Notes under the pieces: generated by a model
The model's database searches: none
Told to the model about the DNA's origin: nothing
The model's input: only the letters and a program-made list of their open reading frames with translations
Shown: piece after piece, positions 3,784 to 45,642 of the stretch
Layout: every line of letters begins with the position of its first letter
Numbering within the stretch: position 1 is the first letter of the stretch
NCBI GenBank assembly: GCA_009377645.1
Contig: WHTQ01000030.1
Coordinates: forward strand, 1-47,950
Direction of reading: 5' to 3'
DNA: 47,950 nucleotides
DNA from: Micromonosporaceae bacterium
GTDB lineage: Bacteria; Actinomycetota; Actinomycetes; Mycobacteriales; Micromonosporaceae
Translations under genes and position numbers: made by a program

Positions 3784-3879
3784 CGCCCAGGACCGCCAAG
3801 ATCATCTTGAGTGTGCTGGTCGTTCGGGCACGGACTGCCGTTCACGGATGGTGACCAAGGCGTTCAGGGGGAGGCGGCG

Positions 3880-5600: not shown

Positions 5601-5602
5601 GC

Positions 5603-7777: not shown

Positions 7778-7869
7778 CGCCCTCCAGGTACCGGTCCAGG
7801 GTACGGTGACTATCGCACCGGGGCGGGCACCGCGCGCGGACTTTCACCGCCGGCGAACCTCGAGCGGCC

Positions 7870-8095: not shown

Positions 8096-8096
8096 G

Positions 8097-8915: not shown

Positions 8916-9414
8916 GAGCGGGCGGTGGCTCATCATCGGCCACGACGATCACCTGCTGGGCTACTTTCCCGCCGAACCAGAGATCTACCACCGACCTTCA
9001 ACCACCGATCCCAGGCGTGCCCCCAGTCGGCGAGTTCGGATCCGCGGAAACCGCAGGCGGCCATCTACGCGATCTGACCGCGGCAGACGCACGAGTGTGG
9101 CGGCGAGATGGTTCGGGCGGGTCGTGCGTAACGCGATCATGGCGGTGCAGCCCGGGCACGTCGCGGAGAACGTCGACTAGGTCGGGCAAGCTCTCCAGTA
9201 CCTGCACTCCATGCTCCGCAGCCAGGCGTTCGACCCAACGGCGCTGGCGTACATGATCACGGAACTTGTGCCAGAGCCAAAATTCGGCCGCCGTTGACAG
9301 CCCGGATCGCACAGAGCCGTGTGCTCCTCGTGTGCTCGAGCTCAGCCGCCCAGCCGACCCGATGCCCACCACCGCCTGGCACCGCACAGCGGGTAACCTG
9401 GGAAAACGACGCAC
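8916..9414. other. Region without a supported gene
   Basis: A 138-codon frame is open on the minus strand (8998-9414), with a plausible patch AAEFWLWHKFRDHVRQRRWVE. I recognise no family, and codon third positions are not convincing. Near 9316-9336 a short direct repeat (AGCACACG twice, three bases apart on the minus strand) occurs. The stretch probably holds old insertion-sequence or element debris upstream of tRNA-Lys. Confidence 0.3.
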
Positions 9415-9490
9415 GGGCCGTTAGCTCAATCGGCAGAGCTGCTGACTTTTAATCAGTAGGTTCAGGGTTCGAGTCCCTGGCGGCCCACCA
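9415..9490 (+). tRNA. tRNA-Lys (anticodon TTT)
   Basis: A complete cloverleaf can be drawn. The acceptor GGGCCGT pairs with GCGGCCC. The D stem is GCTC/GAGC. The anticodon stem GCTGA/TCAGT encloses loop CTTTTAA, with anticodon TTT. The T stem CAGGG/CCCTG closes the TTCGAGT loop. The discriminator is A, and CCA is encoded. It sits at the left edge of the integrative debris, and tRNA 3' ends are common recombinase targets. Confidence 0.96.
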
Positions 9491-10116
9491 CGCATTCCAG
9501 ACATATCGGGAGCTGGCCGTCGCAGGTCGCTGACCAGCCTGAACGTCCTGATGCAGCCGGCGAATCCGAGCCCGGATCACGCCGTCGGATAACATGCATA
9601 CTTTCCTATGCAAACCGTTTCCTGGGGCAGCGGCGCGGATGTCCGCTCTTGGTCGGGTCGCCCTCGCGCATGATGCCCGGTATGTCTGCATATGGGTACC
9701 GAGCAACAGCACCAGCAGGCCGTGAACGCACTGGCCGCCATGATCGCCAGATGGTGGGCAGCCGGCGGACACCACCTCACCACCCCATCCGCACAACCTG
9801 CCAGCCTCCACACGACAGGCAGACCTACAGATCTCCGGGCCTCCCATCAGCCTGTGCAGCTCCCGCGCCGGCGAGGTCGAACAGTCCTACCGCAACCTCC
9901 TGAGCAGCCACCGGTCCGTGACGCCGACCCACAGTGTCGGTGACTGGTGGAAGAACCGCGCGTTGCGGAGGCTGTTTCGTAACGTGCTTTCGATCAGGAC
10001 AGCCTTCGATGGGTGCGGGGCCTTCACGGCTTGGGCGAGGGCGCGGCGAAGCGCCCGAATGGGTGATGACGTGGGCCCGCTGCGGCAGATGCGCCTTGAG
10101 GTGGGGCCGGGTGGTG
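9491..10116. other. Element-edge region, no confident gene
   Basis: The stretch lies just inside the tRNA-Lys. The best small frame is 9692-9943 (+), beginning MGTEQQHQQAVNALAAMIARWW. This is an amphipathic helix-like start of the kind seen in small proteins of actinomycete elements, but it becomes low-complexity after about 35 residues and I cannot assign it. Other open frames here lack coding character. Confidence 0.3.
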
Positions 10117-10935
10117 TCAGTCGGAGAACTCGATGCTGCCGGTGCGCCTTCCGGACGTGGCAAGCCACTCAAGGATCAGCGCCGCCAGCAGGAGCCACCC
10201 CACCCCGACCGCCAGCGCTAGGCCGAGCTCCGTGATCACCTCAGCGGCTACCGGGGTTCCGGCGGGTGTGTCGGCCAGTGTGCGCACGGCCGCCAGTGCG
10301 TGTGTCAGCGGCACCGCTTGCACGGTGGCCGGGACCCACTCTGGCCAGAACGTCACGGGCACGGTCACGCCGCAGGTCAATGTCGTGCCCACCTGCGCGA
10401 CGTTGGCCACGACATTGCGCAGGCTCATCGCGTTCAGGACGATCGCGCCGAGCACCATCGCCAGGAAGTAGGTGGTCACGCTGGCCACGATGAGGCAGCC
10501 GAGTACCGCCACCGCCCGTATCGGGCTGAAGGTGACCCCGAAGAACGGTCCGAGGCCGAACAGCGCCACGGAGGCGGTCAGGACGCCGCTGGGTATCCAC
10601 TGGACGCTGCGCCCGACGAAGACTGGCCACAGCCGGGTTGGGGCCGCCACGAGAAGCGGCATCGTGCCCTGGCGCCGTTCCCAGGTGGTGGTGGCGGTGC
10701 TGGTCAGCGCCTCGGTCGCCGCGATCATGACGGCGACGCCAATGAACAGGAAGCGCACCGCGTCCGGAGAGTCCAGCAGCAACCCGATGATCGCGAAGAA
10801 CACCACTTGGAGCATTGCCCGGCTCATCCAGCCAACCGCCCACCCGAGCGGAGAGTACATCGCCCACATGTCGACCCACGCGTTGTAGGTGCTGTACCGG
10901 ATCACCCGCACCGGAGCGGCCACCAGCTCAGGCAT
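10117..10935 (-). CDS. ABC-2 type exporter permease
   Basis: Starting at the ATG at 10935 (MPELVAAPVRVIRYSTYNAW) the protein has 272 residues with about six membrane spans. Clear spans are VVFFAIIGLLL, ALFGLGPFFGV, VLGCLIVASVTTYFLAMVLGAIVL and LALAVGVGWLLLAALIL. The block TTTWERRQGTMPLLVAAPT between the second and third spans is typical of ABC-2 (DrrB-like) permeases. The cognate ATPase is not in the window, so the exporter is incomplete here. The start overlaps the TGA of a short upstream frame, which suggests loss of a coupled partner. It lies between the intact tRNA-Lys and the tRNA-Lys fragment, so it probably came in with an element. The substrate is unknown. Confidence 0.8.
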   Translation of the reverse strand: MPELVAAPVRVIRYSTYNAWVDMWAMYSPLGWAVGWMSRAMLQVVFFAIIGLLLDSPDAVRFLFIGVAVMIAATEALTSTATTTWERRQGTMPLLVAAPTRLWPVFVGRSVQWIPSGVLTASVALFGLGPFFGVTFSPIRAVAVLGCLIVASVTTYFLAMVLGAIVLNAMSLRNVVANVAQVGTTLTCGVTVPVTFWPEWVPATVQAVPLTHALAAVRTLADTPAGTPVAAEVITELGLALAVGVGWLLLAALILEWLATSGRRTGSIEFSD

Positions 10936-11091
10936 AGCCCATCGTCCCCGTCCTGCGTAGCCGGTCGACTGCGCGCCGCAGTAGCACCAGGCGACTGCTC
11001 GCCAAGACCGGTGCCGCCTCCCGCACCCAACTCGCCATCCGCCACCTACGCCGCACCTGAACCGGCGTAGCCCGCTGAGGCGCTCGCGGTG
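10928..11091 (-). pseudogene. Tail of a lost gene coupled to the ABC-2 permease
   Basis: An open frame ends with TGA at 10928-10930, overlapping the permease ATG. Its last residues read LVLLRRAVDRLRRTGTMGYA. The pattern (basic, after a hydrophobic run) resembles the cytoplasmic C-terminus of a second ABC-2 permease, which often pairs with the first. An in-frame TGA near 11091 and the lack of upstream homology show that only the tail remains. A 36-residue ORF from ATG 11038 is the alternative reading. Confidence 0.35.
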
Positions 11092-11342
11092 GTCAGTTCG
11101 CCCCATTGGCCCTCGGTCGTGGTGGCCGCCCCCCGGGACCGACCGCAGCTCGACATCGCCGTAACGTGCCGCGCCGGGACTCGGTCAGGCCGACCGTTCT
11201 GCCGACGTCAGCTGGGGACGAGCCTGAACGCCGGCCGCCGCGGCACCGCGGCAGGTCGGCCGAGCACACGACGAGCACATCAGCCTGGTTCTATTCCTAC
11301 GCGACGCGCGTATCCCCTGCTCAGGAGCGTGCGAGCGGACGC

Positions 11343-11394
11343 GAGCTGTGGGCTTTTAATCCATAGGTTCTGGGTTCGAGTCCCAGGCGGCCTA
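11343..11394 (+). repeat. Detached 3' half of a tRNA-Lys gene (putative att remnant)
   Basis: The segment reads as D-stem end GAGC, an anticodon arm with loop CTTTTAA (TTT), a T arm CTGGG/CCCAG, then acceptor strand GCGGCCT plus A. No matching 5' acceptor or normal D arm precedes it. Over 42 aligned bases it matches tRNA-Lys at 9449-9487 except for five positions, two of which are a compensatory swap in the T stem. It therefore comes from a different tRNA-Lys gene rather than from a fresh duplication. The truncated recombinase gene begins 133 bases downstream, as expected for an attachment site next to int. Confidence 0.65.
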
Positions 11395-11481
11395 CCCCAC
11401 CAACTCTCGCCTGCGGAAACGTGCCCTAGGTTGATCGACTTGACCAGGTTAAGGTCGCTACAGCTTTGCCACAGCGGACTA

Positions 11482-11592
11482 TTCGACGCCCTCCGCCAAC
11501 CGCTGTAGCGAATGTGAGAGACCTCTGTGGACCCCAACGAGCTGTACCTCGCCCTACCCGCGGCACCGGCGGCGCTGAACCGCTCACCAAAG
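11482..11592 (+). repeat. Direct repeat copy A (recombinase gene head)
   Basis: These bases cover the 45-base leader and first ~20 codons of the recombinase gene. They recur at 15731-15843 in the same orientation with roughly five-sixths identity by eye. The shared core includes CCGCTGTAGCGA and GAGAGACCTCTGTGGACC. The two copies bracket the XRE-containing segment. Confidence 0.75.
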
Positions 11593-12010
11593 ACCATCCA
11601 CGACTACTTGTATCGCATCGGCCAGCTCGCCAAGGCGCACCCCACCGCCGACGTGACCGACCTGGACCACGGCCCAGCTGAGCGACTACTTCGTGGGATG
11701 CTGGAACGCCAGGAAGCCAGCTCGGTCGCGATCCACTTCCGCATGCTCCGCGCGTTCTGCAACTGGACCGCCCGGGAGGAGATCACAACCAAGTCGCCGA
11801 TGGCCGGGATGGGCGAGCCGAAGGTCACCGACCAGCCGCCGCCGGTGCCTGACGACGCGATCCGAGCACTGCTGAAGGCGTGCGCCGATGTGGACTCCGA
11901 TGCCCACCGCGACACGGCGGTCATCCGGCTGTGGCTGGGGCCCGGCTCCCCCCGGGTATCCGAGATGGCCGGACTCAACGTGGATGACTTGGACCTGCGA
12001 CACGACCAGG
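11527..12010 (+). pseudogene. Tyrosine recombinase/integrase, truncated
   Basis: From a GTG at 11527 about 160 residues look genuine. SPKTIHDYLYRIGQLAKAH and IHFRMLRAFCNWTAREEI form the SAM-like core-binding domain. RDTAVIRLWLGPGSPRVSEMAGL is the start of the catalytic domain, with the first catalytic arginine. After LDLRHDQV, near 12010, homology stops. The frame stays open to 12849 only because it runs antisense to another decayed gene. The remaining catalytic residues (HxxR and the tyrosine) are absent, so it cannot act. It would have driven integration of the surrounding element, probably at a tRNA-Lys. Confidence 0.8.
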
Positions 12011-12590
12011 TCGACCGCCTCCACGCGTTCGCGAAGCTCGCCGAGCTGGCCAACGACTTGGCCCACTCCGGCGTTGACCCCCCGCAGCTCCTCCAGGACC
12101 AGCCGGGCGAACCCCGATGTGTTCCTTGGCCAGCCGTACCCGATCGCGCTCTACCGCTGCCACCCGCTGCGAGACTGCGCCGCCCCGGCCTCGACCTGCT
12201 CGGCCAGGTTCTGGACTGCGGCGTTGACCCGGCCCCCTGGTACAGCAGATCCCGGTTGACGACGTCTGCTGCCCGAGCCGGTTCTGCAACTCCGCCCGGT
12301 CCCGTTCGGCCGCGAGCACGCGCTCCCCCAGCTCGGCCTGGCCGGAGAGGATCTGACCCACCATGGCGGCGTACGTCTTGCCCTGACGGGTCGACCCGGT
12401 CCCGGATCTGCTCCGATAACTCGGCGATGGTCGCCAGGCCGCCGGTGATAGCGGCCGTCTGGTTCCGCAGCTCTCCCACACCTTCGGCTACGGCGTCATG
12501 GATGTGCAGGTGCACCCGGGCCAGATCCTGCCGGTGCTGGTCCCGAGTTGCTCGCAGGTGGCAGACGGCGATGATGCAGACGCCGGCGGT
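12010..12590 (-). pseudogene. Coiled-coil protein remnant, several frameshifts
   Basis: Read on the minus strand, blocks with strong coiled-coil character appear in sequence but in changing frames. They are VCIIAVCHLRATRDQHRQDL (hydrophobic start), GELRNQTAAITGGLATIAEL, GQAELGERVLAAERDRAELQ, AAVQNLAEQVEAGAAQ and LGELRERVEAVDLV. At least three frame changes are needed. The pattern suggests a membrane-anchored coiled-coil protein of an integrative element. I do not recognise the family. It abuts the truncated recombinase at about 12010, so insertion or recombination here likely broke both genes. Confidence 0.5.
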
Positions 12591-12880
12591 TGAGCGCCTA
12601 CCACCCGGTGGAGCCGCCCCGGCGGTGGCGTCGCCGGAACCTGCTGCGCCGGGTGCCGTGGCGTGCCCTGACCTGGCTCGCTGGGACCGCCGGCGCAGCC
12701 GGCTGGTGGGCCGCTCAGCCCGAGGTCGGCTGGCCGGAGGCGATCCCCGTGGCGTGCTGCTACGGGCTGCTGCGCTGCCCTCGGGCAGCCGATGGGGCGA
12801 AGACCATGATCGTGGTCTGGCTGGCCGAGTTGGTCGCCGCCGGCGGTAGGCTCGTCTGCGAGGGCGGGCCGCTGGGCTAG
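12590..12880 (+). CDS. Small hydrophobic protein, function unknown
   Basis: The frame encodes 96 residues from a TTG at 12590. A basic N-terminus (PPRRWRRRNLLRRVPWRA) leads into LTWLAGTAGAAGWWAA and a second hydrophobic stretch TMIVVWLAELVAAGG, so one or two membrane segments are plausible. The product resembles small membrane proteins carried next to XRE regulators in actinomycete elements, but I cannot name a family. A start a little further downstream is possible. It ends 48 bases before the XRE gene. Confidence 0.45.
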   Translation: MSAYHPVEPPRRWRRRNLLRRVPWRALTWLAGTAGAAGWWAAQPEVGWPEAIPVACCYGLLRCPRAADGAKTMIVVWLAELVAAGGRLVCEGGPLG

Positions 12881-12928
12881 CGGCCGGTGGCCCGCCATCC
12901 CTGACCGCTAGCAGGGGAGCACAGTCGA

Positions 12929-14116
12929 ATGCCTCGCCGCACCGTTGTGGACCCGCGGCTCGCCCCGCGGCTGCGCGAGCTGCTGGGCGAGTCCGGCATC
13001 TCGTTCCGGGCGTTGGCGGCCCGCACCTACTACTCCAAGAGCTACATCCACGCCCTGGCCACCGGCGTCAAGGCGCCGACAGTGGACATTGCCCGCCGGC
13101 TCGATGATGTGATGGGCGCCGGGGGTCAACTAGCGGCGCTCGTGGCGGTCGAGGGCCTGCCGGGCGGCGGCGACGAGCTGGAGGCGCTGGAGCTGGCCCG
13201 GCGGGCGGTTGCCAGCGATGTGGGTGAGGAGACCCTGACCCGGCTGGAACGGCAGGTGGATGATCTCGCCACGCTGTACGCGGCCACCCCACCGCAGGAG
13301 CTGCTGCAGCAGGTGCGGCAGTCGCTCAGCCTGGTGCGGCGGCTGCTCGACGCGCGGACCACCCTGTCCGGGCAGCGTCGGCTTCTGGTCGCGGGCGGGT
13401 GGCTGTCGCTGCTCGCCGCCACGATCCACATCGACCTGCGGCAGTCTGCCGCCGCGGAGGCCCGGCTCGGCACTGGCGCGGAGCTGGCCGGGCAATCTGA
13501 TCACCCAGAGATCGCAGCCTGGTGCCTGGAAACCCGGGCGTGGGATGTGCTCACCGGCGGCGACTACCCCGCTGCGGTCGACCTGTCCCGGCAGGCACAG
13601 GCCACCGCACCCCAGGGAAGCTCCGCGCTGATCCAAGCCACCGCCCAGGAGGGCCGGGCGTGGGCGCGGATGGGACGGCAGGCCGAAACCCGCGACGCGT
13701 TGGACCGGGTGGCGCGGATGGCCTCCACCCTGGCCGTCCCGGACCGGCCCGAGCACCACTACCGGTACGACCCGGACAAGGCCCTGTCCTACACCGCGAC
13801 CACATTGGCGTGGGCTGGCGACCCGGCCGCTGAAGGGTTCACGCGCACTCTGATCCGGCAGCTCGAAAACCCCGGCAACGGCACGCCCCGTCCGCGGCGG
13901 GTCGCATCAGCGCGGCTGGACCTGGCGCTGGCGCTACTGGCCGCCGGGGAGCCAGAGGAAGGCGCGGCGGAGGCGACCAACGCGATCTCCTCCGGACGAG
14001 TGGTGCCGTCCAACTGGTGGCGGGCGGCCGAAGTGCTCGCCGGGGTGGAGCGGCTGGGAGTGCGGCAGGCGGCCGACCTGCGTGAGGTGTACGAGGTTCA
14101 CCGGCCCAGTCAGTAG
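12929..14116 (+). CDS. XRE-family regulator with C-terminal TPR-like domain
   Basis: The protein has 395 residues from an ATG preceded ten bases earlier by AGGGGAG. Residues of about 10-65 form a helix-turn-helix (RELLGESGISFRALAARTYY, then SKSYIHALATGVKAPTVDIA). The rest is helical and TPR-like, with repeats such as AWCLETRAWDVLTGGDYPAA and ALIQATAQEGRAWARMGRQ. This is a common actinobacterial type in which the helical domain may sense a ligand or partner. The two small genes downstream are its usual companions. It is intact, in contrast to the debris around it, and probably regulates the element's own genes. Confidence 0.85.
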   Translation: MPRRTVVDPRLAPRLRELLGESGISFRALAARTYYSKSYIHALATGVKAPTVDIARRLDDVMGAGGQLAALVAVEGLPGGGDELEALELARRAVASDVGEETLTRLERQVDDLATLYAATPPQELLQQVRQSLSLVRRLLDARTTLSGQRRLLVAGGWLSLLAATIHIDLRQSAAAEARLGTGAELAGQSDHPEIAAWCLETRAWDVLTGGDYPAAVDLSRQAQATAPQGSSALIQATAQEGRAWARMGRQAETRDALDRVARMASTLAVPDRPEHHYRYDPDKALSYTATTLAWAGDPAAEGFTRTLIRQLENPGNGTPRPRRVASARLDLALALLAAGEPEEGAAEATNAISSGRVVPSNWWRAAEVLAGVERLGVRQAADLREVYEVHRPSQ

Positions 14117-14131
14117 CCGTCGCACCCGCTC

Positions 14132-14150
14132 TGGTGGACAGTGGTGGACA
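14132..14150 (+). promoter_or_regulatory. Operator-like direct repeat
   Basis: TGGTGGACA occurs twice with a 10-base period, one helical turn, directly after the XRE gene and upstream of the small genes. This geometry suits a dimeric regulator binding one face of DNA. The XRE protein next door is a candidate. No footprint or further copies are seen. Confidence 0.3.
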
Positions 14151-14335
14151 CCGATGCCCTTCCGATCACGCACGGCCGCCGTGAGGCTACCGGTGTGGGC
14201 CGGTTCGGCGCCGGACTGCCCCTAATGGTCAGGAAGACCGGGTCGGCCCACGGTAGACGGACGCGGTGGCGGTGGCTCCGGAAGTCCCAAACGGAGGACC
14301 GTCGCCGCGTCCCCAGACGAGCCGGAGGAGCGACG

Positions 14336-14610
14336 ATGCGGTGGCGACGGCGGCGACCGGAGCCGGAACCCGGCGACCCGGCGACCCGGCGGGCTGGCCG
14401 GGACCACCCGCCCGGCTACCCGACCCGGCACGGCGGCCGGAGCCGGCCGAGCATGGTGGCGCCTGGCTGGACCTGCTCCCCGGCTACCGGGCTGACAGTT
14501 CCGGCCGGGATGCGCTGACCGAGCCGACACAGATCCTCCCACGGCCGCTGATGACCCGCGGCCAGCAGTGGCGGGGCAACGGCGGGCGGCGGCCTGGCGG
14601 TGCCCGATGA
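14336..14610 (+). pseudogene. Small protein downstream of XRE gene, probable frameshift
   Basis: GGAGGAGCGACG precedes an ATG at 14336, whose frame starts MRWRRRRPEPEPGDP but ends at 14518. The C-terminal part that looks conserved (AWLDLLPGYRADSSGRD, TEPTQILPRPLMTRGQQWRG) lies in a different frame, which runs to a TGA at 14608-14610. That TGA overlaps the next gene's ATG as ATGA. The good ribosome site in one frame and the coupled stop in the other imply a frameshift between about 14345 and 14455, real or a sequencing error. The region carries a short tandem repeat (CCGGCGACC). Confidence 0.45.
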
Positions 14611-14840
14611 TCCCGCAGCACCTCGCCACCCGCCCGGAGTGGATCTGCCGCGCCTGCGGCCAGCCGTGCCCCTGCCCGCAGGCGCGGGTGCGGCTGGCGG
14701 CGGTGCACCAGGAGACCGGCAAGCTCGGCCGGATCGGGTACGAGATGCTAGAGCTGGCGGCTAAGGAGCTGCCCGACACGCCGGTGGCGGAGCTGTGGGA
14801 CCGGTTCGTAGCCTGGACAGAGCCGGTCCGTCAGCCTTGA
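14607..14840 (+). CDS. Small Cys-rich-start protein, conserved companion of XRE gene
   Basis: The product has 77 residues. The start (MIPQHLATRPEWICRACGQP) has a CRACGQPCPC cluster that could hold a metal. It is followed by an acidic helical tail (LGRIGYEMLELAAKEL). It overlaps the preceding frame by ATGA, so the two are translationally coupled. I do not know a function. Its position behind an XRE/TPR regulator and the coupling suggest a joint role with it. Confidence 0.6.
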   Translation: MIPQHLATRPEWICRACGQPCPCPQARVRLAAVHQETGKLGRIGYEMLELAAKELPDTPVAELWDRFVAWTEPVRQP

Positions 14841-15024
14841 TCGTCGCCTGGCACCTGGTCGATCGGCGGGTTCTCTGCGACGTACACCGCCTTGCCCTGC
14901 TGGCCCACGATCCAGCCCTGAGAACGCAGCGCCAGCTGTACTGTCTTGATCGTGGTCTTGCTAGTTTCGAGCCGGTCGAGCTGGATAGGCAGGTCCCGCG
15001 GGAGCGTCGAGCCTCCGGGTAGCT
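14831..15024 (-). pseudogene. GntR-type winged-helix fragment
   Basis: One minus-strand frame reads LPGGSTLPRDLPIQLDRLE, then TTIKTVQLALRSQGWIVGQQ and AVYVAENPP. That is the second half of a GntR DNA-binding domain: recognition helix, then a wing ending in GKAVYVAENPP. A TGA stands directly before QLPGGS, and no ligand-binding domain follows. It is either a remnant or a very short regulator that lost its start. Confidence 0.55.
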
Positions 15025-15092
15025 GTCAGATCAACGACTCTCCGGTCCGCTCCACCTCAGCCGAGGTGCACACTGCCGTGGTCGCACGGGGT

Positions 15093-15114
15093 GACTACAA
15101 CCAGACTACAACCA
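15093..15114 (+). repeat. Tandem 11-base repeat upstream of PASTA gene
   Basis: GACTACAACCA occurs twice head to tail, ending 15 bases before the GTG start at 15130. The position between promoter and start suits an operator or upstream promoter element. Nothing else in the window carries the same unit as far as I can see. Confidence 0.4.
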
Positions 15115-15129
15115 AGGAAGTAACAGCTC

Positions 15130-15624
15130 GTGAGCGTGTACGGCGTCCCGCAGGGTCCCCCACCCCCACCCCCACCACCTCCCCGGCCAACCCCGGCACG
15201 ACCGACTGGCCTGCCGGTGCTGGCCGTTGTCGGGATCGCAAGCGGGACGTTCCTGGCCGGTTGCCTCGGGGGCCTGGCGGTGGCGAACCTTCCCTCGAAC
15301 GACGGCCCGTCCGACGCCCTGCCGCCGAGCCCTGCCGTGGCCGAGGTGACGACGCCCGCTACCGAAGGCAGCGGCGCGCCGAGTCCGGAGCCTAGCGAGG
15401 TGAAGATTCTGGCCATCCCCGACGACTTAGTCGGTCAGAACGCGGCGGTGGCGGAGGACGAACTGCACCGGCTCGGGTTCACCAATGTGCAGTTCGCCTC
15501 CACAGATGTGGATGACACGGTGGTGCTCCTCCCCCCGAACTGGACCGTGGTGGAGGTTGCGCCCGAACCCGGGCGGGAGGTGCCGGCCGACGCTGCTCTG
15601 GTGCTCACCTGCACGAAGCAGTGA
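15130..15624 (+). CDS. Single-pass membrane protein with PASTA domain
   Basis: The product has 164 residues from a GTG; AAGGAAG lies about ten bases upstream. A proline-rich N-terminus (ten prolines in a row near residue 10) precedes one membrane span (LPVLAVVGIASGTFLAGCLG). Then come a Ser/Pro linker and a C-terminal PASTA-like domain (VGQNAAVAEDELHRLGFTNV, EPGREVPADAALVLTC). PASTA domains bind muropeptide-like ligands in kinases and PBPs. Here there is no kinase, so it may act as a small wall sensor or adaptor on the outer face. It lies between decayed genes but looks intact. Confidence 0.75.
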   Translation: MSVYGVPQGPPPPPPPPPRPTPARPTGLPVLAVVGIASGTFLAGCLGGLAVANLPSNDGPSDALPPSPAVAEVTTPATEGSGAPSPEPSEVKILAIPDDLVGQNAAVAEDELHRLGFTNVQFASTDVDDTVVLLPPNWTVVEVAPEPGREVPADAALVLTCTKQ

Positions 15625-15730
15625 CCAACCTCCGCTGTGACATAGAGCGATGGATTCGGTCCAGACAGAGAAGTCGTGACCTGCGCTTCTGCAGGTCGCC
15701 ACAGTGGTTCTGGCTCTCCGGACTCTAATT

Positions 15731-15843
15731 CGGCAACCCTCCGCCGACCGCTGTAGCGACTGCGAGAGACCTCTGTGGACCCAACGAGCTGCACCTCGCC
15801 TCCTCCGGCGGCACCTGCGCGCCCCGAACCGCTCACCCAAGAC
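15731..15843 (+). repeat. Direct repeat copy B (recombinase gene head, frameshifted)
   Basis: This matches 11482-11592. The GACCTCTGTGGACC start context is kept, but one C is missing in the following run (GGACCCAACG against GGACCCCAACG), which shifts the frame, and no recombinase follows. It marks the right border of the duplicated or rearranged element. Confidence 0.75.
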
Positions 15844-15951
15844 AGCGTGACTGGACCCTCGCCCAGGCGTCGATACGGCAATGGGGAGCCCACTTCGATG
15901 CCTACACCCTCGGCGAGGGTCGGCTCCAGCGGGTATCGACGACCCCCGGCC

Positions 15952-16055
15952 TCAGCCGTCGTCGGGGAAGTGGTCCCCGAGGACGTACACCGTCCACCCC
16001 AGCTCACCAGCAGGCGGGGTGCGCCTCTGCCCAGGCATCGGTCGGCGAAGAACTC
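15952..16055 (-). pseudogene. PIN-like (DUF5615/Mut7-C-type) toxin remnant
   Basis: Directly behind the DUF433 remnant, the minus strand reads EFFADRCLGRGAPRLL. One frame over it continues as ELGWTVYVLGDHFPDDG and then hits TGA. The opening FFADRCLGR carries the first acidic residue of PIN-like toxins that pair with DUF433 antitoxins. A one-base shift and an early stop remove the rest, including the TKDK motif. It is dead. Confidence 0.55.
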
Positions 16056-17769: not shown

Positions 17770-19194
17770 ATGGACCTTCTCAATGACATCCTGGTACGGC
17801 TCGACGACGGGATCTGGGGCCCCTGGCTGCTGATTCCGCTGTTGCTCGGTACCGGCCTCTACCTGACGGTGGTGCTCCGGGGGTTGCAGTTCACCCGGCT
17901 CGGGGCCGCCTTCTGGCTGGCGCTGATCAAGCGCAAGGAGCCCGGTGGCGAGGGCGACATCAGCCACTACCAGGCGCTGACGGTAGCGCTCGCGGCCACG
18001 GTCGGTGTCGGCAACATCGCCGGCGTCGGCACCGCGATCGCGCTCGGCGGCCCGGGTGCGCTGTTCTGGATGTGGATCACCGGCCTGGTCGGCATGGCGA
18101 CCAAGTACGCCGAGGCGTTCCTCGGCGTCAAGTATCGCCGGGTGGATGCCAAGGGTGAGCAGAGCGGCGGCCCGATGTTCTACCTGAGCGAAGGGCTGAA
18201 GCGCCGGTTCGGCGGCCGGGTGGGCACGCTCGGCACCGGGCTGGCGATCGGGTACGCGGTGCTGGGCGCGATCGCCGCCTTCGGCATCGGCAACATGGTG
18301 CAGTCGAACAGCGTGGCCGACGCGCTGAACAGCGAGTGGGACGTCCCGCACGCGCTCACCGGGCTGGTGCTCATGCTGGTGGCCGGGGCGGTCATCCTCG
18401 GCGGGATCCGGGTGATCGGCCGGTTCACCGCCGGGTTCGTGCCGTTCATGGCGATCTTCTACGTGCTGGCCGCCAGCGTGGTGCTGGTCCGCAACGCGGG
18501 CGAGATCCCGGGGGCGCTCGGCACGATCTTCAGCAACGCCTTCACCGGCACCGCCGCCACCGGCGGGTTCGTCGGGGTCGCGTTCCTGGCGGCCCTGCGC
18601 TACGGGGTCGCCCGCGGGATCTTCTCCAACGAGTCCGGCCTGGGCACCGGCGGCATCGCCGCCGCGGCCGCTAAGACCACCCACGAGGTACGGCAGGCGC
18701 TGGTCTCGATGACCCAGACGTTCCTCGACACCCTGGTGGTGGTCACGTTCACCGGCCTGACCATCGTCGTCAGCGGCGCCTGGACCTTCGTCGACGAGGC
18801 CGGCGACGCGCTGACCGGCGCGACCCTGACCGCCACCGCGTTCCGGGTCGGCCTGCCCGGTGACCAGGGCGGGGTGGTGGTCTCGCTGGGAGTGGTCTTC
18901 TTCGCGTTCTCCACCCTGCTGGGCTGGGCGTACTACGGCGAGCGGTGCATGGACCGGCTGTTCGGGCGCGCGCTGGTGACCCCGTACCGGCTGGTGTTCG
19001 TGGCCGCCATCTTCCTCGGCTCGGTCACCGAGCTGACCACCGTCTGGACGTTCGCGGACATCATGAACGGCCTGATGGCGCTGCCGAACCTGGTCGGGCT
19101 GCTGCTGCTGTCGCTGCTGGTGGTCCAGGGCAGCCGGGAGTACTTCGCCCGCCCGGACTGGCGCAGCCCGGACCTCACCCGGTCCGGCGGCTGA
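17770..19194 (+). CDS. Alanine/glycine:cation symporter (AGCS family)
   Basis: The product has 474 residues with about ten or eleven membrane spans, the normal AGCS length. The signature is GVGNIAGVGTAIALGGPGAL followed by FWMWITGLVGMATKYAEAFL near residue 80-120. Later come VARGIFSNESGLGTGGIAAA and GWAYYGERCMDRLFG, both conserved in these sodium-coupled alanine or glycine importers. GGAGAG precedes the ATG at good spacing. The gene stands alone, divergent from the UbiA gene and followed by a tiny membrane protein. Confidence 0.95.
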   Translation: MDLLNDILVRLDDGIWGPWLLIPLLLGTGLYLTVVLRGLQFTRLGAAFWLALIKRKEPGGEGDISHYQALTVALAATVGVGNIAGVGTAIALGGPGALFWMWITGLVGMATKYAEAFLGVKYRRVDAKGEQSGGPMFYLSEGLKRRFGGRVGTLGTGLAIGYAVLGAIAAFGIGNMVQSNSVADALNSEWDVPHALTGLVLMLVAGAVILGGIRVIGRFTAGFVPFMAIFYVLAASVVLVRNAGEIPGALGTIFSNAFTGTAATGGFVGVAFLAALRYGVARGIFSNESGLGTGGIAAAAAKTTHEVRQALVSMTQTFLDTLVVVTFTGLTIVVSGAWTFVDEAGDALTGATLTATAFRVGLPGDQGGVVVSLGVVFFAFSTLLGWAYYGERCMDRLFGRALVTPYRLVFVAAIFLGSVTELTTVWTFADIMNGLMALPNLVGLLLLSLLVVQGSREYFARPDWRSPDLTRSGG

Positions 19195-19236
19195 CTTCTG
19201 AGTTTCCGGGCCACGGGTTCAGGGTATGGACCCGGC

Positions 19237-19380
19237 ATGGAGTTCCTGCTGTGGATTCTGGCGGTCGTGCTCGTGGTGGCCGGCATCGTGGCCCTGTTCC
19301 GTCGCCAGCTGCTCTGGGGGATCATGCTGATCATCGTCGGGCTGCTGGTCGGGCCCGGCGGAGTAAGCGTCTTCACGTAG
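19237..19380 (+). CDS. GPGG-motif small membrane protein
   Basis: The product has 47 residues, almost all hydrophobic. A first span is MEFLLWILAVVLVVAGIVAL, then FRRQLLWGIM and a second span LIIVGLLVGPGGVS. The short FRRQ turn and the closing GPGG motif define a known actinobacterial small-protein family of unknown function. TATGGA sits six bases before the ATG, a near match to the leaderless pattern seen elsewhere in this window. Confidence 0.85.
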   Translation: MEFLLWILAVVLVVAGIVALFRRQLLWGIMLIIVGLLVGPGGVSVFT

Positions 19381-19431
19381 CCGGCTCGGCTGGGTTCCGG
19401 GCCGGCGGGCACCGGCGGATAGCCTGGCGGC

Positions 19432-19761
19432 ATGAACCAGCCCTCGCCGCTGCCTCGACGGCTCAGCGTCAGCGCCACTCCGGACGTCGAAGCGGGGGTG
19501 TACGCGGACTTCGTCAGCGTCTGGCACCAGCCGCACCTGTTCGTGCTGGACTTCTCCGTTCACACCAACCCGCCCCAGGTGGTCGAGGTCGAAGGGCAGC
19601 GGGTGGTGAACGTTCCGGCCCGGATGGTAGCCCGGGTGCGGATCCGGCCGGAGCAGATCTGGGAGATCATGAAGGCGCTGGAGCAGCAGCTGTCCCGCTG
19701 GGAGAAGGAGCAGGGCCGGACCCAGCGCCAGGAGGACCCGCCGGCTGCGCCGCCGTCCTGA
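19432..19761 (+). CDS. DUF3467 family protein
   Basis: The product has 109 residues. EAGVYADFVSVWHQPHLFVL, VLDFSVHTNPPQV and ARVRIRPEQIWEIMKALEQQ follow the DUF3467 pattern: a small beta-rich core with a C-terminal helix. The function is unknown. A box TAGCCT lies exactly six bases before the ATG, with no Shine-Dalgarno site, so the message is probably leaderless. It converges on asd. Confidence 0.85.
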   Translation: MNQPSPLPRRLSVSATPDVEAGVYADFVSVWHQPHLFVLDFSVHTNPPQVVEVEGQRVVNVPARMVARVRIRPEQIWEIMKALEQQLSRWEKEQGRTQRQEDPPAAPPS

Positions 19762-41193: not shown

Positions 41194-41997
41194 ATGATCG
41201 GACTGGTGCTGGCGGCCGGCGCCGGGCGCCGGCTGCGCCCCGACACCGACGCGCTGCCCAAGGCGCTGCTGCCGGTGCACGGACCGACCACGATCCTGGA
41301 CATCGCGCTGCGGAACCTGGCCCAGGTCGGGGTGACCGAGGTGGCGGTGGTGGTCGGGTACGCGGCCGACGCGATCCGGCGACAGCAGGCGACGCTGCAG
41401 CGGCGGCACCAGGTGACCCTGACGCTGATCCCGAACGACCGGGCCGAGGAGTGGAACAACGCCTACTCGTTGTGGCTGGCCCGGGAGCTTTTCGCCGCCG
41501 GAGTGCTGCTGCTCAACGGCGACACGGTGCACCCGGTGAGCGTGGAGCAGACGCTGCTGCGCCAGCGCGGACCGGAGCTGTTGCTGGCGGTCGACACCGG
41601 CAAGCCGCTGGCCGACGAGGAGATGAAGGTGCGGTTCGATCGGACCGGCCAGCTCACGCACATCCACAAGGGACTGGAGCCGGAGACTGCCCACGGGGAG
41701 TACATCGGGGCGGCGCTGATCGAGCCGGCGGCGGCCATCGGGCTGGCCGAGGCGCTGGCGGCGACCTGGCGGCGCGACCCGGGACTGTACTACGAGGACG
41801 GCTTCCAGGCGTACGCGGACCGGGGCGGGCGGGTGCGGGGCGCCCCGATCGGGGCGGTCGACTGGGTGGAGGTCGATGATCACGCCGACCTGGCCCGGGC
41901 CCGGGCCATCCTCGCGAGGGCCGTCAGCGAGGCGGAGCGCAGCGGAGCCGAGCGGCCAAGCGGCCCGAGCGGAAGTCACAGCGCATGCCGCTGCTGA
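41194..41997 (+). CDS. LicC-like sugar/polyol-phosphate nucleotidyltransferase
   Basis: The product has 267 residues. The activation loop is GLVLAAGAGRRLRPDTDALP followed by KALLPV (catalytic Arg and Lys). LLNGDTVHP carries the metal Asp. VDWVEVDDHADLARARAI is the usual closing motif of CTP/phosphocholine-type transferases. These enzymes couple CTP (or UTP/GTP) to a polyol or choline phosphate. The hydrophilic tail after residue 245 is probably disordered. TATCGT lies six bases before the ATG: leaderless start of a unit. The gene overlaps the next by 13 bases. Confidence 0.85.
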   Translation: MIGLVLAAGAGRRLRPDTDALPKALLPVHGPTTILDIALRNLAQVGVTEVAVVVGYAADAIRRQQATLQRRHQVTLTLIPNDRAEEWNNAYSLWLARELFAAGVLLLNGDTVHPVSVEQTLLRQRGPELLLAVDTGKPLADEEMKVRFDRTGQLTHIHKGLEPETAHGEYIGAALIEPAAAIGLAEALAATWRRDPGLYYEDGFQAYADRGGRVRGAPIGAVDWVEVDDHADLARARAILARAVSEAERSGAERPSGPSGSHSACRC

Positions 41998-43076
41998 CCC
42001 GCACGGTGAACACGCCGCTGGTGATCGAGGTGCGCCGCGGGGCGGTGGCCGAGCTGGGGACGATCCTGGCGGACCGGCGGATCTCGGCCGGCGGGGACGT
42101 AGCGGTGGTGGTCGGCCCGGGGCAGGGCGAGCGGCTGGCCGAGCTGGTCCGGCCGCAGCTCGGGGCGGCCGACCTGTTCCCGGTCGCCGGCGGAACCCTG
42201 GACGCGGCCCAGGAGCTGGGGGCGAAGCTGCGGCAGCGCTCCTACGACGCGGTGGTCGGGATCGGCGGCGGGAAGACATTGGACACTGCTAAGTGGGCAG
42301 CTTCCCGCTACGGCATCCCGATGGTCAGCGTCGCCACCAGCCTGGCCCACGACGGCCTCGCCTCCCCGGTCGCCTCACTGGACCACGAGGGCGGGAACGG
42401 CTCGTACGGCGTCCAGATCCCGATCGCGGTGGTGGTCGACCTGGAGCTCGTCGCCAGCTGCCCGGACGGGCAGAACCGGGGCGGGATCGGCGACGCGGTC
42501 AGCAACCTGTCCGCCTGCGCCGACTGGGAGCTGGCCCACACGGTACGCGGGGAGCAATTGGACGGGCTGGCGGTGGCACTGGCCCGGACCGGAGCCGAGG
42601 CGCTGCTGCACCATCCCGGCAGCCTGTCCGACGACGGCCTGCTCGGCGCACTCGCGGAGGCGCTGATCCTGGGCGGGATCGCGATGTCGGTGTGCGGGTC
42701 GTCCCGGCCCTGCTCGGGCGGCTGCCACGAGATCTCGCACGCGCTGGACGCCCGGCACCCGGGGTTGGCCAGCCACGGCGAGCAGGTCGGCATCGGGGCG
42801 CTGTTCTGCACCTGGTTGCGCGGTGAGGAGGCCCATCCCCGGTTCGCGGCGATGGCGGCCTGCCTGTCCCGGCACGGCCTGCCGGTCCGGCCGGCCGACC
42901 TGCCGCTGACCGACGCCGAGTTCGCGGCGGCGGTGGCGCATGCCCCGCGGACCCGCCCGGACCGGTACACCATCCTGGAGCACCTCGACCTGAGCCCGGC
43001 GGAGCTGGCCGGTCGGGTGGCAGACTACGGCGATGCACTCGACCGACTCCAGCTCCCAGGCGGACCGGCCGGCTAG
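41985..43076 (+). CDS. Glycerol-1-phosphate-dehydrogenase-like (AraM/EgsA) enzyme
   Basis: The product has 363 residues. The NAD(P)-binding stretch VVGIGGGKTLDTAKWAASRY lies near 91-110. Metal ligands of the DHQS-like family are Asp123 (in TSLAHDGLASP), His252 (CHEISHALD) and His264 (ASHGEQVG). These features and the length fit sn-glycerol-1-phosphate dehydrogenases, which reduce DHAP to G1P; a related alcohol dehydrogenase is the alternative. The 5' end overlaps the nucleotidyltransferase, and the 3' end overlaps the CDP-alcohol enzyme by 44 bases, so the three are tightly coupled. Confidence 0.85.
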   Translation: MPLLTRTVNTPLVIEVRRGAVAELGTILADRRISAGGDVAVVVGPGQGERLAELVRPQLGAADLFPVAGGTLDAAQELGAKLRQRSYDAVVGIGGGKTLDTAKWAASRYGIPMVSVATSLAHDGLASPVASLDHEGGNGSYGVQIPIAVVVDLELVASCPDGQNRGGIGDAVSNLSACADWELAHTVRGEQLDGLAVALARTGAEALLHHPGSLSDDGLLGALAEALILGGIAMSVCGSSRPCSGGCHEISHALDARHPGLASHGEQVGIGALFCTWLRGEEAHPRFAAMAACLSRHGLPVRPADLPLTDAEFAAAVAHAPRTRPDRYTILEHLDLSPAELAGRVADYGDALDRLQLPGGPAG

Positions 43077-43767
43077 GCTGGTCGACTTCTACGCCGTCAA
43101 CAAGGGCGGCGGGCTGTTCAGCGAGGCGACCGGACAGTGGCTCGGCGCGGCCCTGGCCGCCACCGGGCGCCGGCTCGGGCTGGCCCCGACCGTGCTGACC
43201 CTGGTGAACCTGGCGATCGGGCTGGCGACCTCGGTCACCGTGGTGGCGCTGGCGGCACCGGTGGCGGACGGCACCGTGCCGGCCTGGCCGGTCGGGCTGG
43301 TCGCGCTGGTCGGCTGGCAGCTCGCGTACGGGTTCGACTGCGCCGACGGCCAGCTGGCCCGGGTCACCGGCCAGACCAGCACCGCCGGTGCCCGTACCGA
43401 CATCCTGTCCGATGTGGCCTCCCAGATCGCCCTGGTGGCCGCCCTGTCGACGGTCACTCTCGCGCAGCAGCCGGACACTCCGACCTGGCTGCCGGCGGCA
43501 TTCGCCGGAACCTGGATGGTCAACCTGGTTACCTCCGCGCTGCAGTCCGGCCCGACCGCGACCAGCATGGTCCCGTCCCGCTCCCGCCCGGTCCGGATCG
43601 CCAAGCTGATCCGCGACCCGGGCGCGCTGTTCTTCGTCGCCGGCCTGATCCTGCTGTTCGCCCCGGCCGGGATGGTCTGGTTCGTGGCCGCGTTCACGGT
43701 CGTCAACGGCGGCTTCCTGCTCGCCTCGATCGCCTTCTCCGCCCGCACCGCCCTCCGCCAGTCGTAG
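43033..43767 (+). CDS. CDP-alcohol phosphotransferase
   Basis: The product has 244 residues with six membrane spans. The signature DCADGQLARVTGQTSTAGAR continues to TDILSD (residues 102-127). It matches D-x2-D-G-x2-A-R-x8-G-x3-D-x3-D exactly, with all four aspartates. Such enzymes displace CMP from a CDP-alcohol to form a phosphodiester with a lipid or inositol acceptor. It starts within the previous gene, so it likely uses that pathway's product. The start used (ATG 43033) overlaps by 44 bases; no later start fits better. Confidence 0.9.
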   Translation: MHSTDSSSQADRPARLVDFYAVNKGGGLFSEATGQWLGAALAATGRRLGLAPTVLTLVNLAIGLATSVTVVALAAPVADGTVPAWPVGLVALVGWQLAYGFDCADGQLARVTGQTSTAGARTDILSDVASQIALVAALSTVTLAQQPDTPTWLPAAFAGTWMVNLVTSALQSGPTATSMVPSRSRPVRIAKLIRDPGALFFVAGLILLFAPAGMVWFVAAFTVVNGGFLLASIAFSARTALRQS

Positions 43768-43774
43768 ACCCGGC

Positions 43775-44194
43775 TCACGGCCGCCGGCCGCCCACCCGCT
43801 CAGCGGTCAGCTCGGTGACGGAGGCGATGATGTCGTAGTCGCGGTCGTGATGCAGCACGGTGGCTCGGTAGGTCAGTGCGAACGCGGCGACCAGCACGTC
43901 GAACGAGCCGGCCGCCCGGTGCTGTCCGGCGACAGCGAGGGCGGCTTGGACCTCGCGGGCGCGGGTCGCCACTTCCGGGGTGTGGGGTAGCTCAACCAGG
44001 AACTCGCGGCGCTGCGCCATGATCAGCTGATGATCGGTCGGGGAGGTGGCCGAGAACCCCGCCTCCAGGTCGAGCGGAACGCACGTAGCGAGCAGCCCGG
44101 CCTCCATCAGCCGCGTCAGCCAGCCGGCCAGGTGCGCTTCCTTGCGAGCGGCCGCGGTCGCGGAAGTGTCGGCCAGGAAGAGCCCGGCGATCAA
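43775..44194 (-). CDS. vapC: VapC-family PIN-domain toxin
   Basis: The product has 139 residues from a TTG at 44194, overlapping the antitoxin TGA (TTGA). FLADTSA near the start holds the first acidic site. HRAAGSFDVLVAAFALTYRA carries the second (D in FDVLVAA), and VLHHDRDYDIIASV the third and fourth. PIN-domain VapC toxins cleave initiator tRNA or rRNA. The gene ends only eight bases from the stop of the convergent CDP-alcohol gene. Confidence 0.9.
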   Translation of the reverse strand: MIAGLFLADTSATAAARKEAHLAGWLTRLMEAGLLATCVPLDLEAGFSATSPTDHQLIMAQRREFLVELPHTPEVATRAREVQAALAVAGQHRAAGSFDVLVAAFALTYRATVLHHDRDYDIIASVTELTAERVGGRRP

Positions 44195-44424
44195 CGGCTG
44201 CGCTGGCGGCCGCGTCCGGTGGTCGACTCCTGCCGTACCGCCGGGTCGTCCCACCCGTGCGGGTCGCCGAACACATGGGTGGCAGCGGCGACCCGGGCCG
44301 CTCGGTCCCGCCGGGAGGCGATCAGCCGCAGTGCGGTGTTGATCGTTTCTTTCTTGGTCGTGGTGCCCAGCTCGGCGGCCGCGCCGGCGAGCGCGTCGTC
44401 ATCGATCTCCACCATCGTCCTCAT
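44191..44424 (-). CDS. vapB: VapB-family antitoxin
   Basis: The product has 77 residues from the ATG at 44424. MRTMVEIDDDALAGAAAELG, then TTTKKETINTALRLIASRRD is the VapB ribbon-helix-helix. The tail (HVFGDPHGWDDPAVRQ) binds VapC. TATCCT (44431-44436, minus strand) lies six bases before the ATG, the leaderless pattern; GATATC within it may be part of the operator. It sits 28 bases behind the GT4 gene stop, so it may also get read-through. Confidence 0.9.
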   Translation of the reverse strand: MRTMVEIDDDALAGAAAELGTTTKKETINTALRLIASRRDRAARVAAATHVFGDPHGWDDPAVRQESTTGRGRQRSR

Positions 44425-44452: not shown

Positions 44453-45625
44453 TTACACACCCCGATGCGCCGGGCGCCGGACCGACTCGTAGACGTCGAT
44501 GAGCTGGCGGGTGACCACGTCCGGGTGGAAGGTCGACTCGTACCGGGCCCGGGCGGCGGCGGCCCGCTCCGGGGCCTGCGCCGCGGCGGCCGGCAGGGCG
44601 GCCGCCAGCGCCGCCGCGGCCGGCTCCACCACCCAGCCGGCGTCGCCGACCAGGTAGGGCACGCCACCCAGCCCGGTGCCGAGCACCGGCCGGCCGGCCG
44701 CCAGCGCCTCGATCACCACGGTCGGGAGCACGTCGTGCCACAGTGGAGTGGCGACCACCACCGCGGCGGCCCGGAGCGCCGCGGCCACCCCGGGACCGTC
44801 CAGCGGGCCGAGATAGTCGACATCGGACCGGGCGGCGGCCGCCCGCTCGGCCAGCTCCCGCTGCGGGCCGTCGCCGGCGATCCGCAACGGCCCCAGCGCC
44901 CCGTCCGGGTGCCGGGCCCACGCGTCCAGCAGCAGCCCGAGCCCTTTCTCCGGCGCCAGCCGGCCGGAGGCGAACAGGAACCCGTCCCCGAGCGGGGCCG
45001 GTGGACCGGGGTCGGCGACGGCGTTCGGCTTCACCACGATCCGATCGGCCGGCACCCCGTACGACTCCAGGTGCTCGGCGATCGCGGCGGTGAGCGCGAC
45101 GAACCGGTCCACCGACCGCCAGGTCGGCCGGTGCGCGGCCAGCGTCACCGCCATCACCGCGCTCTGCGCCCGCGAGCCCCGGTAGCACCGGTGCACCACC
45201 GCCGGCAGCCCGAGCCGCCGGCCCCGGCAGTCGTGGCAGATCCCGCCGTCGCGGAAGTAGATCCCGGCCGCGCACACCTGCCGGTAGTTGTGCACCGTGT
45301 GCACCACCGGCAGCCCGTACCGGTGGGCGGTCCGGACCAGCCAGGGGGACAGCAGCGGGTACGGGTTGTGCAGGTGCAGCAGGTCCGGCCGGTGCTCCCG
45401 GATCAGCCCGGCCAGCTCCCGCGCCGCGGCCGGGTTCCACATCGGCGAGACCGGCAGCAGCGCCCGCCCGGCCAGCGGCAGCGCCGGGATGTCGTCGGAG
45501 CTGCGCAGCAGCGGCAGCACCTCCACCCCGGCGTCGGTCAGCTGCGCGATCTCGGCGTCCACCACCCGGTTCTCCCCGGACGGCTGGGCCGACCGGTACC
45601 GGTTGTGCGCCACCACCACCCTCAC
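44453..45625 (-). CDS. GT4-family glycosyltransferase
   Basis: The product has 390 residues from the GTG at 45625 (VRVVVAHNRYRSAQPSGENR); an in-frame TTG at 45640 would run over the promoter. GT-B fold: N-terminal HLHNPYPLLSPWLV and VVHTVHNYRQVCAAGIYFRD, with a four-cysteine patch. C-terminal FASGRLAPEKGLGLLLDAWA and VVVATPLWHDVLPTVVIEAL hold the donor EX7E-like motif. It transfers a sugar from an NDP-sugar to a cell-envelope or exopolysaccharide acceptor. Divergent from fpg with a shared -10 box. Confidence 0.9.
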   Translation of the reverse strand: MRVVVAHNRYRSAQPSGENRVVDAEIAQLTDAGVEVLPLLRSSDDIPALPLAGRALLPVSPMWNPAAARELAGLIREHRPDLLHLHNPYPLLSPWLVRTAHRYGLPVVHTVHNYRQVCAAGIYFRDGGICHDCRGRRLGLPAVVHRCYRGSRAQSAVMAVTLAAHRPTWRSVDRFVALTAAIAEHLESYGVPADRIVVKPNAVADPGPPAPLGDGFLFASGRLAPEKGLGLLLDAWARHPDGALGPLRIAGDGPQRELAERAAAARSDVDYLGPLDGPGVAAALRAAAVVVATPLWHDVLPTVVIEALAAGRPVLGTGLGGVPYLVGDAGWVVEPAAAALAAALPAAAAQAPERAAAARARYESTFHPDVVTRQLIDVYESVRRPAHRGV

Positions 45626-45630
45626 CGGGC

Positions 45631-45637
45631 TACCGTA
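45631..45637. promoter_or_regulatory. Shared symmetric -10 box for two divergent leaderless genes
   Basis: The 7-base palindrome-like TACCGTA gives TACCGT on the plus strand (45631-45636) and TACGGT on the minus strand (45637-45632). Each is exactly six bases before a GTG: fpg at 45643 and the GT4 gene at 45625. Only 17 bases separate the two starts and there is no Shine-Dalgarno site for either. Confidence 0.65.
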
Positions 45638-45642
45638 CAAGG

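Follow-up and report, generated by a model that had tools for sequence, protein, structure and literature searches.

Three overlapping genes of a Micromonosporaceae bacterium probably (we put the probability near 0.58) specify a route that leads from dihydroxyacetone phosphate (DHAP) to sn-glycerol-1-phosphate (G1P) and on to CDP-sn-1-glycerol, from which glycerol phosphate would be transferred to an envelope lipid or glycan. The genes, which encode a nucleotidyltransferase (NTase), a putative glycerol-1-phosphate dehydrogenase (G1PDH), and a CDP-alcohol phosphotransferase, lie at positions 41194 to 43767 of the window, which is the entire contig WHTQ01000030.1 (C134; 47,950 nucleotides [nt]) of an assembly of 4.97 Mb in 217 contigs. 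The open reading frame list and Pfam place the three plus-strand frames exactly where an initial annotation, made from the sequence alone, had put them.

In the first step of the proposed pathway, DHAP would be reduced to G1P by an enzyme of the EgsA/AraM type, as its family suggests. In the second, the LicC/IPCT-like enzyme would combine G1P with CTP to yield CDP-sn-1-glycerol, a prediction based on its family, on a fixed 13-nt overlap between the NTase and G1PDH genes, and on their co-inheritance. In the third, the CDP-alcohol phosphotransferase would move sn-glycerol-1-phosphate from CDP to a membrane-bound acceptor, with an envelope glycolipid or lipid-linked glycan as the likeliest candidate, such that the module would comprise cytoplasmic activation followed by transfer.

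Sequences and predicted structures of the three enzymes

From its sequence, we infer that the dehydrogenase is a member of the EgsA/AraM group that would convert DHAP to G1P. It matches Fe-ADH_2 in Pfam (8.8e-31) and scores 235.8 bits against the NCBIfam G1PDH model NF002022, as opposed to 69.1 bits against the glycerol dehydrogenase model. The top five PDB matches are 3ce9 (1.6e-39) and four G1PDHs, namely, 4rgq, 4rfl, and 5fb3 (7e-38 to 9e-37) and 9h4x (6e-20); 3ce9 was deposited as a glycerol dehydrogenase yet groups with the G1PDHs in our tree, and matches to the other glycerol dehydrogenases start at 8e-13. In this 32-row tree, 28 G1PDH-like rows (including 4rgq, 9h4x, and a Priestia ara-operon protein) stand apart from two glycerol dehydrogenases and two phosphonate-type dehydrogenases, and a phosphonate-type iron-dependent alcohol dehydrogenase (Fe-ADH) reaches only 20.7 bits on NF002022. 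The scores and the tree agree with the initial annotation, which had named an AraM/EgsA-type enzyme and had raised a position among sugar alcohol oxidizers as the alternative; the dehydrogenase groups with the G1PDHs. Residues D170, H248, and H264 align with the D, H, and H of G1PDH structure 4rgq (presumably from M. jannaschii), and we take these residues to be the metal ligands, all three of which had been reported as present. Across the 15 rows of the G1PDH alignment (A3), H248 and H264 are invariant, and D170 is replaced by E in one row (L033).

The NTase is nearest in sequence to CTP-dependent enzymes and is predicted to be a CTP:sn-glycerol-1-phosphate cytidylyltransferase. It matches NTP_transferase (PF00483) and NTP_transf_3 (PF12804) in Pfam, and the three best PDB matches to a 15-row profile are LicC (3.4e-18), the inositol-1-phosphate cytidylyltransferase IPCT (5.1e-15), and the phosphonate cytidylyltransferase PntC (1.8e-13), all of which are CTP enzymes. 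Matches to UTP and GTP enzymes are weaker, beginning at 2e-10, and this order upholds the earlier description of the NTase as LicC-like. The AlphaFold model (pLDDT, 91.5) has a fold near those of PntC, LicC, and IPCT but also near those of RmlA, GalU, and GlmU.

The product of the third gene is predicted, from sequence and model, to be a class I CDP-alcohol phosphotransferase with the helical membrane fold of that family. Its Pfam match is to CDP-OH_P_transf (PF01066; 1.5e-8), and the signature D(x)2DG(x)2AR(x)8G(x)3D(x)3D is complete, as first claimed, and invariant across the 12 rows of its alignment (A2). The best folds for the predicted model (pLDDT, 82) are the archaeal AF2299 (Z, 18.3; root mean square deviation, 3.2; 219 aligned residues) and IPCT-DIPPS (Z, 17.1), with cholinephosphotransferases and PIP synthases ranking below both; Foldseek E values are weak (2e-3 at best), and every one of the top 21 rows is a CDP-alcohol transferase. 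The headgroup of phosphatidylglycerol has sn-1 stereochemistry, which is also what a Kennedy-type route would deliver here, with diacylglycerol or a glycolipid as the acceptor, as in CEPT1, and phosphatidylglycerol or a phosphoglycolipid as the product in place of a polymer. CEPT1 (1.8e-6) and CHPT1 are the best PDB sequence matches of the phosphotransferase, and the trio occurs in genomes without TagF; however, the ranking of folds, together with exporter and TagF neighborhoods in other lineages that point to glycans, leads us to regard such a route as quite unlikely. The known Kennedy pathway (CCT with CEPT1/CHPT1) shares the logic of a cytidylyltransferase followed by a CDP-alcohol phosphotransferase and differs in that, here, a dedicated dehydrogenase is predicted to make the phospho-alcohol.

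Co-inheritance and layout of the genes

The complete trio is present in all 80 of the best of 218 named relatives, several of whose loci stop at contig edges. These 80 bear Micromonosporaceae names (we assume the placement of their genera in this family), except for one metagenome-assembled genome labeled Actinomycetales. Among 25 genomes of the family of the window (f1, its own genome included), strong G1PDH matches (E < 1e-90; next match, 1.1e-17) occur in 17, and the NTase occurs in precisely those 17 (P = 9e-7). The three genes are side by side in 12 of the 17 (the window, L024 to L031, and L033 to L035). In another, of the same genus as the window (G002), the operon is broken by about 300 kb, all three genes are retained, and the NTase and CDP-alcohol transferase genes remain with deoD, an SCO6745-like gene, and GT4. 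At L032 9379 to 15883, the relocated G1PDH gene of G002 is followed, about 2 kb downstream, by genes for a cytidylyltransferase-PEP mutase fusion, a TPP enzyme, and an Fe-ADH. A phosphonate role suggested by these downstream genes was rejected because the other two genes, some 300 kb away, keep their usual neighbors and because the arrangement is absent from the other loci read.

Across 296 genomes of the phylum (cutoffs, E ≤ 1e-40 for G1PDH and E ≤ 1e-25 for NTase), G1PDH occurs in 36 and the NTase in 37, with both in 33 (Fisher exact test, P = 7e-36; neither this P value nor that for the family is corrected for the relatedness of the genomes). Only three genomes have G1PDH alone and four the NTase alone; among the former, a weaker NTase match adjoins G1PDH in G276, and the match in G304 sits on a 4.3-kb contig. 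The two genes are adjacent in 30 of the 33 genomes with both, the exceptions being G043 (3.3 kb apart), G144 (15 kb), and G095 (different contigs). In contrast, strong matches to a CDP-alcohol transferase of the window type occur in only 2 of the 296 genomes, both from f1, and weak matches occur in five more genomes. The conserved core is therefore the NTase and G1PDH, and the phosphotransferase slot is lineage specific. The suggestion that the genes form a three-gene unit found in other genomes holds among the 80 relatives, whereas phylum-wide it applies to the NTase-G1PDH pair; similarly, the pathway is uncommon, as had been proposed, in the phylum (36 of 296 genomes) and not in its own family (17 of 25).

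This pattern also bears on whether the NTase genuinely acts as a phosphocholine cytidylyltransferase, with the dehydrogenase as a mere neighbor. LicC is the best PDB match, and the Streptomyces fungicidicus protein is annotated as a "phosphocholine cytidylyltransferase family protein," but the tight co-inheritance of the NTase and G1PDH throughout the phylum, even with the operon broken in G002, renders that possibility very improbable.

Within the trio (Table 1), the NTase and G1PDH genes overlap by 13 nt, and those for G1PDH and the phosphotransferase overlap by 44 nt; the 13-nt overlap is identical in 80 of 80 named relatives. A leaderless transcript had also been proposed. In the window, TATCGT ends 6 nt ahead of the ATG of the NTase gene, and TANNNT ending 4 to 9 nt upstream occurs in 0 of the 80 relatives, so that a leaderless transcript was rejected as a conserved property.

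Table 1. Genes of the NTase-G1PDH-phosphotransferase locus and conserved neighbors in the window
Predicted product	Position	Strand	Length (aa)	Basis
LicC/IPCT/PntC-type NTase, predicted CTP:sn-glycerol-1-phosphate cytidylyltransferase	41194..41997	+	267	Pfam, PDB profile, AlphaFold model
G1PDH of EgsA/AraM group, predicted to convert DHAP to G1P	41985..43076	+	363	NF002022, PDB matches, tree
Class I CDP-alcohol phosphotransferase, helical membrane fold, predicted to transfer glycerol-1-phosphate to an envelope acceptor	43033..43767	+	244	PF01066, signature, model
GT4 glycosyltransferase, conserved neighbor	44453..45640	-		Pfam
Polyprenyl-phosphate sugar-1-phosphate transferase (PssY), conserved neighbor, truncated by contig end	46532..47950	+		TIGR03025

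Gene neighborhoods and the likely consumer of the predicted CDP-glycerol

The genes for GT4 and PssY, found near the trio in 68 and 66 of the 80 named loci, had been taken as a sign that the product decorates a surface polymer. Their recurrence is confirmed (the TIGR03025 score of the PssY product in the window is 297.6 bits, above the cutoff of 295.55), but they constitute weak evidence because the gene for the DNA repair protein Fpg is nearly as conserved (65 of 80), and they were downgraded as proof of function; an SCO6745-like gene is near the trio in 38 loci. Better evidence for an envelope role comes from the ABC exporter, TagF, and DUF5941 neighbors in other lineages. Between the phosphotransferase and GT4 genes of the window is a VapBC-like pair on the minus strand (43775 to 44424), consisting of a PIN-domain protein (43775 to 44254; Pfam) and a small frame (44191 to 44424) that we assume to be antitoxin-like. 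In the close relative L024, the corresponding interval spans only about 120 bp.

We take family f18 to be Streptomyces from the identity of its cluster with the one annotated on S. fungicidicus plasmid p1. In plasmid p1 and in five f18 loci (drawn from 11 positive f18 genomes, with Pfam run on one locus), the gene order is DUF5941/CDP-OH-PT, NTase, G1PDH, a second CDP-OH-PT, GT2, ABC-2 permease, and ABC ATPase; hpnCDE follow in plasmid p1, and similar genes follow in four of the five f18 loci, the exception being L156. A further subfamily of CDP-alcohol transferases (DCVDGEVAR-like motif, GVYLDR), whose signature lacks the last Asp, is represented beside G1PDH at L156 8543 to 9268 and, likewise beside G1PDH, in L151, L152, L154, L158, L160, L161, and L163, for a total of eight loci. 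Three Micromonosporaceae genomes have a DUF5941/CDP-OH-PT fusion with ABC-2 permease, ABC ATPase, and GT2-TagF genes at a separate locus (Pfam on one), indicating that parts joined in f18 are split over two places in Micromonosporaceae. G313, also of f18, has a second G1PDH gene between a long gene, presumably rne, and that for ribosomal protein L21, at a locus holding TagF and a TarS-linker GT2. Wall teichoic acid genes of Streptomyces are reported beside L21/L27 in a passage of PMC13274773.

In four loci of another family, f23 (L167 to L170, from 12 positive f23 genomes), genes like type I phosphodiesterases (Pfam match run on one) and PssY-like genes lie downstream of the pair, with one extra gene between in L169; PssY-like matches are thus near the pair in all four of these distant loci. 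The NTase-G1PDH-ABC-2 permease locus L036 includes an IspD-SDR fusion (18115 to 19455) that we take to be TarIJ-like (CDP-ribitol), which suggests that ribitol and glycerol phosphate chemistry occur side by side. At L194 (7956 to 9093) and L195 (7570 to 8785), both of f18, a weak TagD-like match and a CDP-alcohol transferase remotely similar to that of the window are arranged back to back, and the neighbors are glycosyltransferase-like.

Searches for TagF and TagD covered 50 genomes, and those for TagD also covered 14 control genomes. A TagF match of any strength occurs in 34 of the 50. G156 has TagF directly beside the pair, G309 has it at most 5 kb away, and G144 has it at most about 6 kb from the NTase. 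Canonical TagD exceeds the cutoff in 0 of the 50 genomes and in 2 of the 14 controls. In the genome of the window, contig C46 (L180, bases 1 to 16000) carries genes for a TPP enzyme, an Fe-ADH placed with a phosphonate-type one in the tree, an NTase, and a 1,171-amino-acid GT2-TagF protein, with a PEP mutase unconfirmed; this TagF may act on a phosphonate.

Several observations weigh against the proposed route or parts of it. The score of the dehydrogenase falls below the curated NF002022 cutoff of 413 bits, as do those of all seven comparison proteins: the Priestia ara-operon protein, annotated as sn-glycerol-1-phosphate dehydrogenase (229.9 bits), and six other G1PDH-like bacterial proteins (196 to 269 bits). 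In Bacillus, the AraM gene is likewise part of the arabinose operon. Support for the split between G1PDHs and outgroups (80/92) is under the star level of the program and came with long-branch warnings. In the fold searches with the NTase model (Foldseek and VIA), CTP, UTP, and dTTP enzymes are intermixed, at Z scores of 24 to 29, so CTP use is unproven by the fold alone, and the structure search was rejected as proof of CTP specificity. Four of the 17 family loci (L036 to L039) have the pair and no CDP-alcohol transferase in the stretch read, and no CDP-alcohol transferase signature occurs within 8 kb of the pair in L167 to L170. A divergent TagD is possible, given that 28 of the 50 genomes match the TagD model weakly. 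Of the 17 family genomes with the pair, 10 have strong TagF, as do 2 of the 8 without it (P = 0.20); two trio genomes, G001 (of the same genus as the window) and G008, show no TagF match; and the sole strong TagF in the genome of the window lies in an apparent phosphonate cluster. With no significant association and with trio genomes lacking TagF, TagF was rejected as an obligatory consumer; because it fails to track the pair, the trio is not simply a supply of donor for TagF everywhere. In Micromonosporaceae, the consumer is more likely the phosphotransferase of the trio than TagF.

A dehydrogenase whose specificity had shifted to a different phosphorylated ketone or polyol, with the NTase and transferase handling the corresponding CDP-alcohol in place of CDP-glycerol, would accommodate a substrate assigned by family and a score under the NF002022 cutoff. 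It would also suit the mannitol-type dehydrogenase gene that follows the pair in L166 and the varied phospho-alcohols and phosphonates used by the closest solved relatives of the NTase (LicC, IPCT, and PntC). We consider this unlikely, however, as the scores and tree place the dehydrogenase with G1PDHs that include the ara-operon protein and 4rgq, and the D/H/H residues are kept save for one change of D to E.

Relation to known glycerophosphate pathways

Known bacterial uses of free G1P are few, and those named in a passage of PMC13400652 are the Bacillus ether lipid and the archaeal-type lipids of FCB bacteria. The Bacillus AraM-PcrB system, as described in parts of PMC5059525 and PMC13400652, shares with the trio a bacterial enzyme of the EgsA/AraM group; in Bacillus it converts DHAP to G1P, and in the trio the G1P is predicted to reach an NTase. 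An archaeal-type ether lipid, for which a prenyl transferase would take up the G1P in the manner of Bacillus, might be expected from a listing of Streptomyces with G1PDH, GGGPS, and DGGGPS orthologues in the relevant portion of PMC6431249, and short partial PcrB matches below the cutoff occur in 4 of the 50 genomes. Against this, PcrB/GGGPS (PF01884) exceeds the cutoff in 0 of the 50 genomes, with no match at all in the genome of the window, as opposed to 5 of the 14 controls (7 with any match); DGGGPS was not searched. For these genomes, the ether lipid is largely refuted and is left with a very slight chance, since a nonhomologous prenyl transferase would be required.

With the TagD/TagF route, the proposed pathway has in common CDP-glycerol activation for envelope polymers, and ABC-2 exporters and TagF occur near the pair in several lineages; it differs in its LicC-fold cytidylyltransferase, in the predicted sn-1 rather than sn-3 configuration, and in ending with a CDP-alcohol phosphotransferase. 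The location of the pair near CDP-alcohol transferases, an ABC-2 exporter, and, in places, TagF-type polymerases suggests that the module is a G1P counterpart of the TagD CDP-glycerol route. According to passages of PMC5974469 and PMC8262930, two TagF-like polymerases take both enantiomers of racemic CDP-glycerol in vitro, which makes a naturally occurring sn-1 donor plausible on chemical grounds. IPCT-DIPPS, among the best folds, likewise combines a related cytidylyltransferase with a CDP-alcohol transferase, whereas here the frames are unfused, a dehydrogenase lies between them, and the predicted polyol is glycerol and not inositol.

The same kind of locus appears in print as a syntenic araM-tagGH-CDP-alcohol transferase region of Streptomyces, associated with teichoic acid and with exporter genes named tagG and tagH; the passages of PMC13118837 that describe it assign no function to G1PDH and draw no link to CDP activation. 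Bacterial G1PDH, its occurrence in Streptomyces, and this synteny are thus already published, as portions of PMC5059525, PMC6431249, and PMC13118837 attest. In the open-access PMC literature, we found no CDP-1-glycerol, no G1P cytidylyltransferase, and no link of CTP activation to G1PDH, nor anything on DUF5941 or on the three annotation names of the trio together. Nor did that literature yield a published test of the bacterial use of G1P proposed here, namely, its activation with CTP and attachment to an envelope component. Sections of PMC5059525 and PMC6431249 discuss actinobacterial G1PDH genes in the debate over the origin of archaeal membranes, and the genome evidence steers these genes from prenyl lipids toward CDP activation.

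Lipoteichoic acid made by LtaS also contains sn-glycerol-1-phosphate envelope units, which, in the account given in part of PMC5974469, derive from phosphatidylglycerol outside the membrane, whereas here they are predicted to derive from cytoplasmic CDP-glycerol. The prediction is a sharp one in that glycerophosphates derived from G1P and from glycerol-3-phosphate are distinguishable enantiomers, but with sn-1 units already known in lipoteichoic acid, stereochemistry alone would not identify their source. Passages of PMC3196553 describe actinobacteria as lacking clear LtaS orthologues, report that a Streptomyces has polyglycerolphosphate lipoteichoic acid, and favor a lipoteichoic route shared with wall teichoic acid. 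The module is a candidate source of donor for actinobacterial polyglycerolphosphate and bears on the question, raised in the same passages, of how actinobacteria make this polymer without LtaS. More broadly, it is conceivable, although on balance doubtful, that many actinobacteria make CDP-sn-1-glycerol and build envelope glycerophosphate, lipid linked or of the teichoic type, from the archaeal enantiomer in the cytoplasm. If true, the pathway would be the enantiomeric counterpart of TagD/TagF and might account for the glycerophosphate polymers of actinobacteria with neither LtaS nor canonical TagD.

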